From contig JANYCN010000029.1 in NCBI GenBank assembly GCA_025360225.1, positions 1 to 36,791 on the forward strand: a stretch of DNA of 36,791 nucleotides, read 5' to 3'. Under the pieces are notes generated by a model that made no database searches, was not told the DNA's origin, and saw only the letters and a list, made by a program, of their open reading frames with translations. The position numbers and the translations under genes were made by a program. Of the stretch, positions 8,701 through 25,685 are shown piece after piece. The stretch is from Actinomycetes bacterium. Lineage in GTDB: Bacteria > Actinomycetota > Thermoleophilia > Gaiellales > F1-60-MAGs149. The number at the start of each line of letters is the position of its first letter. Position 1 is the first letter of the stretch.

Positions 8701-13635
<4,935 letters not shown>

Positions 13636-13657
13636 GATCTCCGGCAGACCGAGGGTG

Positions 13658-13681
13658 AAGGGCCGCCGCGAGGCGGCCCTT
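13658..13681 (+). terminator. rpoBC terminator hairpin
   Basis: AAGGGCCGCC and GGCGGCCCTT form a perfect 10-bp stem with loop GCGA, 22 bases after the rpoC stop. The following CGTCGTCCTC is only weakly T-rich, as is common for terminators in GC-rich genomes. Confidence 0.75.
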
Positions 13682-13794
13682 CGTCGTCCTCGGGGGAACC
13701 TGAGTGAACCTCACCGAGGCTATCCGTTGCGCTCCGTCCGATCTATGCATGAGGATACCCAGGCTTCGTTCACCGCTCTTCTGGGAGTCACATC

Positions 13795-13878
13795 ATGCGC
13801 AAGTTCAAGCTCGCCATCGCCATCTCCGCGATCGTGTCCTTCGCCGCTGCCGCCGGCACCGCCGCCAAGGGCTGGTAG
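13795..13878 (+). CDS. 27-residue signal-peptide-like microprotein ending Lys-Gly-Trp
   Basis: This small ORF starts at ATG 13795 with GGGAG (13783-13787) 7 bases upstream and ends at TAG 13876-13878. The product begins MRKFKLAIAIS, continues as a hydrophobic Ala/Ile/Val segment with an AAAAGTAA stretch, and ends KGW. The basic start, hydrophobic core and small residues make it look like a free-standing signal peptide; cleavage after the last AA would release Lys-Gly-Trp. It lies between the rpoBC terminator and its own downstream hairpin (13887-13902), so it appears to be an independent unit. No clear promoter was found. It could be an exported signal peptide precursor, a tiny membrane protein, or chance. 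No family is recognised. Confidence 0.5.
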   Translation: MRKFKLAIAISAIVSFAAAAGTAAKGW

Positions 13879-13886
13879 ATCCGAGA

Positions 13887-13902
13887 TCCCCCATCTGGGG
13901 GA
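13887..13902 (+). terminator. Hairpin after the 27-codon ORF
   Basis: TCCCCC and GGGGGA form a 6-bp stem with loop ATCT, starting 9 bases after the stop codon of the small ORF and followed by AATTC. It is a short possible terminator separating that ORF from the HD-GYP gene. Confidence 0.45.
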
Positions 13903-13917
13903 AATTCGTCGATCGGC

Positions 13918-13946
13918 TTGCATTTCGGCGTAGCTTTCTCTATATT
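13918..13946 (+). promoter_or_regulatory. Promoter of the HD-GYP gene
   Basis: TTGCAT (13918-13923), a 17-base spacer and TATATT (13941-13946) are close to a sigma-70-type consensus and sit in an AT-richer stretch unusual for this window. Transcription would start near 13953, giving a leader of about 35 bases to the GTG at 13987. Confidence 0.65.
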
Positions 13947-13977
13947 CCCTAGTCCGGAAGGCTTGAGAGACTAGGGA
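13946..13977. promoter_or_regulatory. Palindrome at the HD-GYP transcription start
   Basis: TCCCTAGTC (13946-13954) and GACTAGGGA (13969-13977) are perfect 9-bp arms around a 14-base spacer. The left arm abuts the -10 and the right arm overlaps the ribosome-binding site GGGAGG. It could be an operator for a dimeric repressor, or an RNA hairpin if transcription starts upstream of it. Confidence 0.5.
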
Positions 13978-13986
13978 GGTCGCTCA

Positions 13987-15339
13987 GTGCTCGTTCAACG
14001 TGTCGCCCGTGGGCGCTCGGTACCCGATCAACGATCGTTCATGCTCGCCGTCGGCGGGGTCTCGTTTCTGCTGGGTTCGCTCGCCCTCGCAACGATCGTT
14101 GGGGGCTTCCGGGGTCACGTGGAACTGCTCGTCGTATTGAGCGCGCTCGCCGTGGCGTCAGAGTCGCAGGCGATGCAGTTCTCCGGTCGCGTATGGCTAT
14201 CCATGACCGGGCCGATCGTCGTTCTCGCTGCTGTCCTGCTCGGACCGATCGGCGGCGTCCTCGTCGCCGTCGCGTCGATGCTCGGGGACTGGCGCGGACC
14301 CGTTCCTCGTTGGGTGACGTACACGGGGCTCTTCGCGGCGCAGGGTGTGGCCGCGGGATTCGCCGCTGACGCAACGCGTTCGTTGGCGGCGAAGATCGTG
14401 ATGGCCTCGGCGGCCTGGGCAGTTGTCAACATCACCGGGTTCCTGATCATCGCCTTCGTGCGGCGCATGGACTCGATCGGCGGGAACGTCCGGATCGTTG
14501 CGACGGTGGTCGGTGGCGGCTCGCTCTTCGCTGCACCGGTCGTGCTGCTGCTTGGCTCGATATACACCCGCGACGGCATTACGCCTCTCTTGTTCTCGGC
14601 TGTCCCGCTTCTCGCCTGTCACCAGCTCTTTGGGATGTACAAGAAGAACCAGGGGCTCGCCGTGGCGCTCTCCGAGGGGAACATGACCTTCGCCCTCTCC
14701 CTCGTACGCGCGTTGGACGCCCGGGATGCACACACCGCTGGACACTCGGCGTCGGTCGCCGTCTACGCCCGCGACGTGGCGATCGCCAAGGGCCTCCCTG
14801 CGTCCGAGGTCGCGAACATCCAGCTCGCCGCGCTGCTGCACGACATCGGCAAGATCGGTGTGCCGACCGAGGTGCTGCTGAAGAACGGCGCGCTCGACGA
14901 CGACGAGTGGATGGCAATCCGCGCGCACCCGCAGATCGGTGCCGACATCGCCGGCGAGACCCCCGTCTTCGTCGAGATCGCGCGCTTCATCCGACACCAC
15001 CACGAACGCCCGGACGGGCGCGGCTACCCGGACGGCCTCGTGGGCGACCGCATCCCCCTCGCTTCGGCGATCATCGGTGTCGCTGACTCGTACAACGCGA
15101 TGACCTCGTGCCGCCCATACCGCGACGCAATGACGCCGGACGAGGCGATCGTCGAGCTGCGACGGGGAGCCGGGACGCAGTTTGACGCGCAGGTCGTCGA
15201 TCTGTTCATCGGCGTCCTCCAGGCGCACGACGGCGAGTACCGGCTCGGGCTCGGCGATCGGTTCTCGCTCGACGGGCAGCGCGTACAGATGCTCGCAGAG
15301 CTCGGCGCGCGCCGCGAGGTCGTCGGCGCTGCAGCCTAG
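13987..15339 (+). CDS. Membrane-anchored HD-GYP domain protein (predicted cyclic-di-GMP phosphodiesterase)
   Basis: This is a 450-residue protein starting at GTG 13987 behind GGGAGGT. Residues about 18-220 form a series of hydrophobic segments (for example SFLLGSLALATIVGG and VVLLLGSIYT), so the N-terminus is an integral membrane sensor-like module. The C-terminal half is an HD-GYP domain: AGHS near 256, the metal pair H285-D286 in LLHDIGKIGVP, HPQIGADI, HHHERPDGRGYPDGL with GYP at 346-348, and ADSYNAMTSCRPYRDAM. HD-GYP proteins hydrolyse cyclic-di-GMP or related dinucleotides in the cytoplasm; all signature residues are present, so it is probably active. It has its own promoter and palindrome and is not coupled to the next gene. 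The signal sensed is unknown. Confidence 0.88.
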   Translation: MLVQRVARGRSVPDQRSFMLAVGGVSFLLGSLALATIVGGFRGHVELLVVLSALAVASESQAMQFSGRVWLSMTGPIVVLAAVLLGPIGGVLVAVASMLGDWRGPVPRWVTYTGLFAAQGVAAGFAADATRSLAAKIVMASAAWAVVNITGFLIIAFVRRMDSIGGNVRIVATVVGGGSLFAAPVVLLLGSIYTRDGITPLLFSAVPLLACHQLFGMYKKNQGLAVALSEGNMTFALSLVRALDARDAHTAGHSASVAVYARDVAIAKGLPASEVANIQLAALLHDIGKIGVPTEVLLKNGALDDDEWMAIRAHPQIGADIAGETPVFVEIARFIRHHHERPDGRGYPDGLVGDRIPLASAIIGVADSYNAMTSCRPYRDAMTPDEAIVELRRGAGTQFDAQVVDLFIGVLQAHDGEYRLGLGDRFSLDGQRVQMLAELGARREVVGAAA

Positions 15340-24359: not shown

Positions 24360-25685
24360 ATGAACCCCGCAAGCAACCCGGCCCTCCGCGAGAGCCACCT
24401 GTTCGACCGACGGACGATCGCCGAGATCCAGCGCGCCGCGGCCGAGGGGATCTACGACATCCGCGGCTTCGGCGCCAAGCGCCACGTGCCGCACTTCGAC
24501 GACCTGCTGTTCCTTGGCGCGAGCGTCTCCCGCTACCCGCTTGAAGGGTACCGCGAGCGCTGCGGCACGGAGGTCACCCTCGGCGCGCGTCACGCGAGGC
24601 AGCCGATCGAGCTAAAGATCCCGATCACGATCGCTGGCATGAGCTTCGGCGCCCTGTCCGGTCCGGCCAAGGAGGCCCTCGGTCGCGCAGCCAGCGAGGT
24701 CGGCACCTCGACGACGACCGGCGACGGCGGCATGACCCCTGAGGAGCGCGGCCACTCCAAGCACCTCGTCTACCAGCTCCTACCGTCGCGCTACGGCATG
24801 AACCCGGACGACCTGCGCCGGGCCGACGCGATCGAGGTCGTCGTCGGCCAGGGCGCGAAGCCCGGCGGTGGCGGGATGCTGCTCGGGCACAAGATCTCCG
24901 ACCGCGTCGCGAGGATGCGCGACCTGCCGATGGGGATCGACCAGCGCTCCGCGTGCCGGCACCCCGACTGGACGGGGCCGGACGACCTGGAGATCAAGAT
25001 CCAGGAGCTGCGCGAGATCACCGACTGGCAGGTGCCGATCTACGTCAAGGTCGGCGCGACCCGCACCTACTACGACGTCCAGCTCGCCGTCAAGGCGGGC
25101 GCCGATGTCGTCGTCGTGGACGGCATGCAGGGCGGCACCGCCGCGACCCAGGACGTGTTCATCGAGCACGTCGGGATCCCGACCCTCCCCGCGATCCCCC
25201 TCGCCGTGCAGGCGCTGAAGGAGCTCGGCATGCACCGGAAGGTGCAGCTGATCGTCTCGGGCGGGATCCGGAGCGGGGCGGACGTCGCGAAGGCGATGGC
25301 GCTCGGTGCGGACGCCGTTTCGATCGGCGTCGCGGCACTGATCGCGCTCGGCGACAACGCGCCGGAGCACGACGAGGGGTATCGCGCGATCGGCAGCGCC
25401 GCCGGCTACTACGACGACTACCAGGCCGGACGTGACCCGAGCGGCATCTCAACGCAGGACCCCGAGCTCGCGGCCCGCTTCGATCCGGTCAAGGGCGGTC
25501 GCCGGCTCGCGAACTACCTGCGCGTGCTCACCCTTGAGGCGCAGACGCTCGCGCGCGCATGCGGCAAGTCGCACCTGCATAACCTCGAGCCCGAGGACCT
25601 CGTCGCCCTCACGATCGAGGCTGCCGCGATGGCTCGGGTGCCGCTCGCCGGCACCAACTGGATCCCCGGACAGGGCTCGTTCTAG
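24360..25685 (+). CDS. FMN-binding glutamate-synthase-like subunit (GlxD/MgsC-like)
   Basis: This is a 441-residue protein equal to the FMN-binding synthase domain of glutamate synthase. The ATG at 24360 is chosen because homologous sequence starts there (LFDRRTIAEIQRAAAEGIYD); the upstream open frame overlaps the previous gene without homology. Motifs include MSFGALSGPAKEALGRAASE, GQGAKPGGGGMLLGHKIS, VVVDGMQGGTAATQDVF and LIVSGGIRSGADVAKAMALG, matching substrate, FMN-phosphate and barrel-strand regions. With the two upstream subunits it should transfer amide nitrogen from glutamine to a 2-oxoacid, or form an N-alkylglutamate from an amine. No glutamine synthetase-like glnT/gmaS gene is in view, so the choice is open. 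Its TAG stop lies inside the left end of a dispersed repeat. Confidence 0.85.
   Translation: MNPASNPALRESHLFDRRTIAEIQRAAAEGIYDIRGFGAKRHVPHFDDLLFLGASVSRYPLEGYRERCGTEVTLGARHARQPIELKIPITIAGMSFGALSGPAKEALGRAASEVGTSTTTGDGGMTPEERGHSKHLVYQLLPSRYGMNPDDLRRADAIEVVVGQGAKPGGGGMLLGHKISDRVARMRDLPMGIDQRSACRHPDWTGPDDLEIKIQELREITDWQVPIYVKVGATRTYYDVQLAVKAGADVVVVDGMQGGTAATQDVFIEHVGIPTLPAIPLAVQALKELGMHRKVQLIVSGGIRSGADVAKAMALGADAVSIGVAALIALGDNAPEHDEGYRAIGSAAGYYDDYQAGRDPSGISTQDPELAARFDPVKGGRRLANYLRVLTLEAQTLARACGKSHLHNLEPEDLVALTIEAAAMARVPLAGTNWIPGQGSF

Follow-up and report, generated by a model that had tools for sequence, protein, structure and literature searches.

We present evidence that a 27-codon open reading frame (ORF), lying between rpoC and a membrane HD-GYP gene in a bacterium of the Thermoleophilia, belongs to a family of tiny genes that accompany one type of membrane receptor; the translation of this family and its pairing with the receptor are well supported by sequence comparison. 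We consider it rather probable that the tiny ORF encodes a peptide ligand, the C-terminal residues of which would bind the S-component-like sensor of the neighbouring protein and thereby set the turnover of c-di-GMP. The window, i.e. the whole stretch of DNA that was analysed (36,791 nucleotides), contains the following features at this locus.

8701-13635, + strand: rpoC, the upstream neighbour, given for context only (the neighbour differs in most relatives)
13649-13693, + strand: strong hairpin after rpoC and 5' of the tiny gene (-38.3 kcal/mol, z -3.57)
13783-13787, + strand: ribosome-binding site GGGAG, 7 nt 5' of the ATG (from the sequence)
13795-13878, + strand: 27-codon peptide gene MRKFKLAIAISAIVSFAAAAGTAAKGW with stop codon TAG (ORF list and translation; counterpart in genome G003; family in relatives)
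13867-13875, + strand: Lys-Gly-Trp codons AAG GGC TGG, corresponding to the C-terminal K-x-W conserved in the order (comparison of C-termini)
13887-13902, + strand: hairpin TCCCCC-ATCT-GGGGGA 3' of the peptide gene (folding; a hairpin also lies 3' of the G003 ORF)
13941-13956, + strand: TATATTCCCTAGTCCG, almost identical in G003 (TATCTTCCCTAGTCCG), between the peptide gene and the receptor gene; probably the promoter of the latter
13987-15339, + strand: membrane HD-GYP protein of 450 aa, the proposed receptor (Pfam HD_5, E = 1.3e-36)
14029-14586, + strand: N-terminal membrane domain of the receptor, about residues 15-200, with a predicted ECF S-component-like fold (Pfam in relatives, structure model)
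14704-15195, + strand: HD-GYP domain, by family a c-di-GMP phosphodiesterase output (HD_5; invariant residues)

A tiny gene that travels with an HD-GYP gene

A sequence-only reading of this DNA had described a 27-codon ORF with a good ribosome-binding site, a basic start, a hydrophobic core and a terminal Lys-Gly-Trp, placed just 5' of a membrane HD-GYP gene, and in all these points it proved right. By a rule based on hydropathy only, the N-terminus of the ORF is signal-like; the sole other window ORF to pass the rule for signal-like tiny ORFs (24590-24670, - strand, MAGPDRAPKLMPAIVIGIFSSIGCLA) probably does so by chance. The same reading had set the ORF between two hairpin terminators. Folding recovered both hairpins: the one on the rpoC side was equalled in stability by 1 of 200 shuffles, and the weaker one 3' of the ORF, with its surrounding 51 nt at -18.8 kcal/mol (z -1.95), by 9 of 200. 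A scan for consensus terminators, however, called none at either hairpin, so that their role as terminators is only putative. No Rfam match was found in the window or in 20 loci.

Of the relatives that share this gene order, the nearest is G003; its rpoC tail is 79-81% identical and is followed by a hairpin, a 28-codon ORF (MLKNRARLASVASILATLAALAGHGKAW), a second hairpin, a stretch in common with the window (TAT(A/C)TTCCCTAGTCCG) and the HD-GYP gene. Another near relative, G001, has a different gene behind rpoC. Since the order is kept in G003 and differs behind rpoC in G001, the tiny ORF appears to travel with the HD-GYP gene and not with rpoC. The recurrence of an ORF of the same place, length and plan in G003, together with the family in relatives described below, confirms by comparison that the window ORF is real and not a product of chance.

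Searches with the ORF itself brought no convincing homologue among 60 relatives, either by DNA or by protein. When 61 genomes were searched with the DNA of the peptide interval, 17 had short matches (23-73 bases each, apart from the window's own copy), none of which held a similar ORF; these were rejected as homologues, and their source is GC-rich repeats or hairpin stems. The only good protein match to the 27 residues was the ORF's own copy, the four others having E-values of 0.24-1.13 and none of them ending in K-x-W. The idea that the same short ORF might recur elsewhere in the genome also failed: the KGW-stop pattern has two matches there, against four for a control pattern, and the second of the two was rejected as a copy because it is antisense to an open reading frame. 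Neither NCBIfam nor Pfam gave a family name for ten of the peptides or for the upstream gene described below.

The family within the order

The first 222 residues of the membrane HD-GYP protein have matches in 49 of the 129 genomes of the order, and a Trp-ended tiny ORF lies beside the receptor gene in 51 of 59 order-level HD-GYP loci. Of the eight loci that have no such ORF, L068 and L097 lie at contig edges, and the other six (L084, L108, L109, L110, L111, L113) match the domain only weakly; for these, the domain profile gives E-values of 6e-13 at best, or no listed value, as against 4.6e-29 or better at ORF-bearing loci. The Trp end was also assessed without selection, on the last residues of ORFs bearing a ribosome-binding site at 54 order loci, the window's own being left out: K-x-W was found at 32, [KR]-x-W at 40 and W at 47, compared with means of 0.08, 0.66 and 3.8 over 100 shuffles of the same loci, and the runner-up after W was Ala (20/54). 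From this count, as from those of lengths and of the fixed rule below, both the window's own locus and loci with less than 180-200 bp upstream were omitted. One further locus, L101, which had no tblastn match, was left out of the 54-locus test, the fixed rule and the compilation of C-termini, and was examined separately; its tiny ORF reads MRLRASILMLAATLVSLASVGGGFRVW.

The compilation of C-termini covers 50 order-level ORFs that were picked by their Trp end, so that the final W is there by choice. Their stop codons are TAG in 32 cases, TAA in 17 and TGA in one; 47 of them point away from the receptor gene and 3 towards it, which argues that the ORF acts in trans. On the far side of the tiny ORF, many order loci have a LuxR-type gene. 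The order-level ORFs range from 6 to 28 codons and have only the C-terminus in common, the K-x-W being far better kept than the helix. At L071 and L073 the six codons of MPIKGW are identical, and an indel just upstream would break any longer frame. At L072, L077, L082, L086, L093 and similar loci, a stretch of the form GGGGTATAA...GCCGTTAGTCCC lies between the peptide ORF and the start of the receptor gene, on the peptide's strand, and has the appearance of a conserved promoter read by a single sigma factor.

Selection on the encoded peptides

In ten hand-chosen pairs of close relatives, some of them trimmed by a few codons and none including the window ORF itself, dN/dS was 0.11 in frame and 1.50 and 2.01 in the other two frames; summed over the pairs, 86.2 synonymous changes fall on 177 sites and 43.8 non-synonymous ones on 534. 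The ORFs of L221 and L229 differ at 7 codons, all synonymously, and by one additional in-frame codon. To judge by these substitutions, selection acts on a protein in the relatives of the window ORF, and the reading frame, on whose conservation the sequence-only reading had staked itself in advance, is indeed conserved.

The proposed receptor and its membrane domain

The residues H285, D286, K289, H314, H338, H339, G346, Y347, P348 and D367 of the 450-aa protein, which comprise the metal-binding and GYP residues, are invariant in 23 relatives. By its domain and its HD, HH and GYP motif residues, the proposed receptor is thus assigned to the HD-GYP c-di-GMP phosphodiesterases. The 3.2-Mb genome of the window (G000) has an unusually large set of HD-GYP proteins, with 18 HD_5 matches; a genome of the same family (G002) has none.

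The AlphaFold model of the membrane domain (pLDDT 91.2) predicts the six-helix fold of ECF S-components. In a VIA-align comparison, ECF S-components filled the top 22 rows (Z 14.3-11.1), ahead of an unrelated row at 7.4; the Foldseek match to S-components was weak (best E 8.0e-3). The Pfam family ECF-ribofla_trS was found in 15 of 23 order-level members and MASE9 (PF20972) in 2 of 23, at E up to 1; with the same limit, the window protein itself had no N-terminal match to either. The MASE9 cut-off of 24.3 bits is passed elsewhere in the family by L269 (36.2 bits), L278 (160.7) and L286 (30.3), and missed by L280 (20.5) and L282 (22.0). The Pfam matches of the receptors include no TPR family. 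The same type of ORF also lies 5' of a GGDEF-EAL protein (L282) and of GGDEF-HD-GYP proteins (L290, L324) that carry this membrane domain; since these three GGDEF-containing proteins have the ORF too, its partner appears to be the membrane domain and not the HD-GYP domain.

Distribution beyond the order

A profile of the membrane domain has matches in 105 of 399 genomes of the class. Candidate ORFs were found at 27 of 33 further class-level loci, a set that includes 4 of the same order; the remainder are L207 and L225, at contig edges, and L210, L227, L228 and L231. Among the class-level candidates are six-codon ORFs with good ribosome-binding sites (MRVSGW, MRFVGW, MNFKWW, MTWRIW), a 25-aa ORF (MRAKLFGAMTALVMLLAASGGRWTW) and an ORF ending in K-x-H (MSKKIEKTLASLLFALVTSGGGSKMH). 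In all, six-codon ORFs such as these or MGIKGW were found at 5 of 54 order loci and 9 of 31 class loci (14 in total), and 4 more loci have 8-10 codons. Most members, of 19-34 aa, have one hydrophobic segment, a basic start and a short cationic or aromatic tail.

At the level of the phylum, the membrane domain was matched in 187 of 396 sampled genomes (E at most 1e-7). Within the best 30 phylum loci, all 18 outside the class have a candidate by inspection (e.g. MKARILMTLVALASLILAGGAGSRMG), the one at L263 being devoid of a recognisable ribosome-binding site. In one Bacillota phylum, that to which a Clostridiales genome belongs, the domain was matched in 89 of 249 genomes (E at most 1e-10). Among the best 30 loci there, one is a contig edge, and each of the other 29 shows, on the same strand as the receptor gene, an ORF following the pattern MK..VKILLALVALVLAGGAxxxW. 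A sample of 50 named genomes of many phyla yielded 20 with the membrane domain; by a loose rule, 15 of its 30 loci have a same-strand ORF, including those of a Pseudothermotoga (MKKLWKILILTGSFLALLISAVGNIELW) and of a Chloroflexi genome, 2 have a divergent ORF only and 13 have none. Judging from these counts, the pairing is tight in the Actinomycetota and in the sampled Bacillota phylum, and patchy elsewhere.

Several loci have additional elements. A conserved protein of about 220 aa with no Pfam or NCBIfam match is encoded upstream of the peptide and receptor genes in Bacillota and deep Actinomycetota (L294:2489-3154, L302:607-1269, L305:495-1160, L249:2485-3189, L256:495-1166 and others) and is possibly a third component; it aligns well in 8 of 10 loci, partly in L299 and not in L310. 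The upstream genes of 10 loci had no Pfam match, and no peptidase or exporter common to the loci came to light in this way. In another set of 20 loci, Rfam detected a raiA RNA (RF03072) upstream in four (L254, L257, L259, L263), where it is followed by a likely raiA/hibernation factor gene, the peptide gene and the receptor gene. At L249, L252, L253, L256 and L262, a long-range inverted repeat (GACCGACATC ... GATGTCGGTC) brackets the peptide gene, which in addition has a conserved 5' leader, possibly a regulatory RNA.

Controls for the pairing

To count candidates uniformly, a fixed rule was applied to the 400 bp upstream: a ribosome-binding site, and either 18-34 aa with a hydrophobic core and a basic start or a short ORF with a cationic W/H end. 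Upstream of the receptor genes, the loci that satisfied it numbered 41/54 for the order, 25/30 for the class, 13/18 for the phylum and 29/29 (assessable loci) for the Bacillota; inside the same genes the numbers were 2 of 52, 1 of 33, 0 of 18 and 1 of 30, and shuffled sequences gave means of 3.4, 2.1, 1.2 and 2.7, respectively. The ORF of the nearest relative (L066) is missed by the rule because it has no recognisable ribosome-binding site.

A scan for related loci yielded mostly ordinary HD-GYP genes, which served as controls; among the matches listed, 7 of 48 also pass. Five of these (L131, L142, L155, L163, L183) belong to genes with the domain, as recognised for four by the same ORF at domain loci and for L131 by contig coordinates; this leaves 2 of 43, with only part of the controls tested for the domain. 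The other HD-GYP genes of five genomes gave 2 matches to the rule in 11 assessable genes (15 more were unassessable): L324 carries the membrane domain (E 9.4e-15), and L331, apparently the terminal part of a gene lying upstream, looks spurious. An aromatic-plus-cation rule on its own was dropped, as 17 of the 48 generic controls, among the matches listed, pass it as well.

Specificity and the C-terminus

Genomes with two receptors have a separate ORF for each: G001 (L065, L112), G774 (L265, L285), G788 (L266, L284) and G777 (L269, L287). Receptors whose peptides end in K-x-H group in a single clade (split support 0.997), even though two of them, L285 and L284, occur in the same genomes as the K-W receptors L265 and L266, respectively; the type of peptide therefore follows the receptor and not the genome. 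C-terminal tails range from ...GTAAKGW in the window to GGANFRW, SGGRWTW, MRVSGW and GGGSKMH in other members. The loci L221 and L229 each have one short and one long ORF in tandem (MIRFCGKMH and ...GGGSKMH; MMRFSMKMH and ...GGGSKMH), and the KMH end common to both suggests that the C-terminus is the functional part. Tandem ORFs were also observed at L112 of G001, where two encode the identical peptide MKARLYTVLGTLAALATSAGWIKGW beside one receptor, and at L255 (MARFFKLIFSFVGLGSTVRW).

Discussion

The scheme that we propose begins with a ribosomally made peptide, the product of the 27-codon ORF, for which the neighbouring HD-GYP protein would be the receptor. In most members, that of the window included, the basic and hydrophobic N-terminal segment would take the peptide into or across the membrane, where cleavage may occur near AAAA|GTAAKGW. 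A cut after AAAA would leave GTAAKGW, which is about the length that six-codon genes encode directly, a likeness that is suggestive only. The peptide or its last 3-7 residues would then bind the N-terminal membrane domain of the receptor, probably from outside the cell, and binding would alter the cytoplasmic output (HD-GYP, more rarely GGDEF-EAL or GGDEF-HD-GYP), so that the level of peptide may set that of c-di-GMP in one direction or the other. Such a peptide could serve as an autoinducer, for monitoring of the population or of the cell itself, and presumably as a private signal, as each receptor has its own peptide. The sequence-only reading had suggested a very short signalling peptide released by signal-peptide processing. 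The first part fits the conserved frame, the conserved C-terminus and the steady pairing with a membrane sensor, and is to that extent supported; processing, in contrast, is not the whole story, because relatives with as few as six to ten codons lack a signal sequence. The six-codon members, lacking an export signal, would either leave the cell in another way or act inside it.

The pattern in most members, which are 19-34 aa long with one hydrophobic segment and a basic start and are linked one to one with a membrane domain, could also be explained by a small membrane subunit: the whole one-helix microprotein would pack against the receptor's membrane domain and tune it, never being released. 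Yet the 14 six-codon products and the 4 of 8-10 codons are too short to span a membrane, and in the order it is the C-terminal K-x-W, far more than the helix, that has been kept; we hold this explanation to be rather unlikely. The same six-codon members, with their good ribosome-binding sites and no export signal, would suit a short product with an intracellular target, be it the receptor or some other partner; in the longer members, the hydrophobic N-terminus would then only direct the peptide to the membrane. This is improbable in our view, given that a signal-peptide-like N-terminus is kept in most members and that the ligand pockets of S-components open to the outside.

A cis-acting role, as a leader peptide or attenuator by which the HD-GYP gene is controlled at the level of translation or transcription, would agree with the hairpin 3' of the ORF and with the arrangement in the window, in G003 and in all Bacillota loci, where the ORF lies 65-300 bp upstream on the receptor's strand; it is at odds with selection at the level of amino acids and with the opposite strand and outward direction of 47 of the 50 order-level ORFs, and is very improbable. 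Short hydrophobic cationic peptides bear a general resemblance to bacteriocins and type I toxins, in which case the HD-GYP protein would be a bystander. A bystander would hardly be expected to show linkage to one sensor domain across phyla, with the peptide type following the receptor clade, and six-codon members also speak against a toxin, so that we give this explanation scarcely any credence. On the preferred reading, that of a peptide ligand for the S-component-like sensor, we lean slightly towards a broader proposal: a new class of peptide signalling, present at least in Actinomycetota and Bacillota, in which ribosomal peptides, encoded in some lineages by just six codons, would bind S-component-like domains fused to c-di-GMP enzymes. 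Such signalling would use a private code and need neither a kinase nor a cytosolic receptor, and S-component folds would have been turned from vitamin carriers into peptide receptors.

We know of no signal for the sensory domains of most c-di-GMP enzymes. If the neighbouring tiny gene encodes it, a whole group of orphan receptors becomes testable with synthetic peptides. Six-codon genes, to which sequence searches are blind, can be found through the partner gene.

The proposed receptors can be compared with two types of known domain. They resemble the ECF S-components (RibU, ThiT, FolT, PanT, NikM/CbiM) in their predicted fold (Z 11-14) and in the ECF-ribofla_trS matches of 15 of 23 members, but are fused to an HD-GYP or GGDEF/EAL output instead of partnering EcfT/EcfA. 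Like MASE9 (PF20972), theirs is an N-terminal membrane domain of c-di-GMP enzymes, and L269, L278 and L286 pass the MASE9 cut-off; the window protein, however, has no match, and only 2 of 23 order members do, at E up to 1. To our knowledge, MASE9 has no peptide partner or ligand. The open-licence literature searched, outside which most subscription papers lie, contained neither the term 'MASE9' nor 'TM0504', nor any peptide partner of S-component or MASE9 c-di-GMP enzymes, nor anything on cell-cell signalling in Thermoleophilia.

Among peptide systems, the mccA gene of microcin C, with seven codons, directly encodes a peptide of a few residues, as the six-codon members would; these have six codons and lie beside a sensor, whereas mccA lies beside modification genes. 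A peptide of Thermotoga maritima, TM0504, is reported to induce exopolysaccharide, along with c-di-GMP genes (Johnson and colleagues, 2005). It is likened here by description, not by sequence, as a peptide signal tied to c-di-GMP outside the usual model bacteria, and we know of no link between it and an S-component HD-GYP receptor. In the Agr system (AgrD/AgrB/AgrC), a small peptide with a hydrophobic N-terminal part is likewise paired with a polytopic membrane receptor; most peptides described here, in contrast, have no ring-forming Cys, the output is a c-di-GMP enzyme and not a histidine kinase, and the AgrD model of NCBIfam had no match to ten of the peptides (best unrelated rows E 0.07-0.11). 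There is also a parallel in gene arrangement with the RRNPP systems (Rap-Phr, PlcR-PapR, Rgg-SHP, ComR-ComS), described as two adjacent genes for a small peptide precursor and a receptor (PMC10075063), the receptors being cytosolic (PMC10075063; PMC13220807). The adjoining precursor gene and a short C-terminal peptide as the signal are features that the proposed system would have in common with them; it differs in its membrane receptor with an S-component-like domain and no TPR match in Pfam scans, and in its c-di-GMP output. Gene pairs for a peptide and its receptor are thus already known from RRNPP and Agr, while this type of receptor, a direct c-di-GMP output and six-codon genes, as deduced here from sequence, were not met with in the open-licence literature. 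If the proposal is true, it would add, in groups such as the Thermoleophilia, a third style of peptide communication, beside the kinase-linked and the cytosolic-receptor systems.
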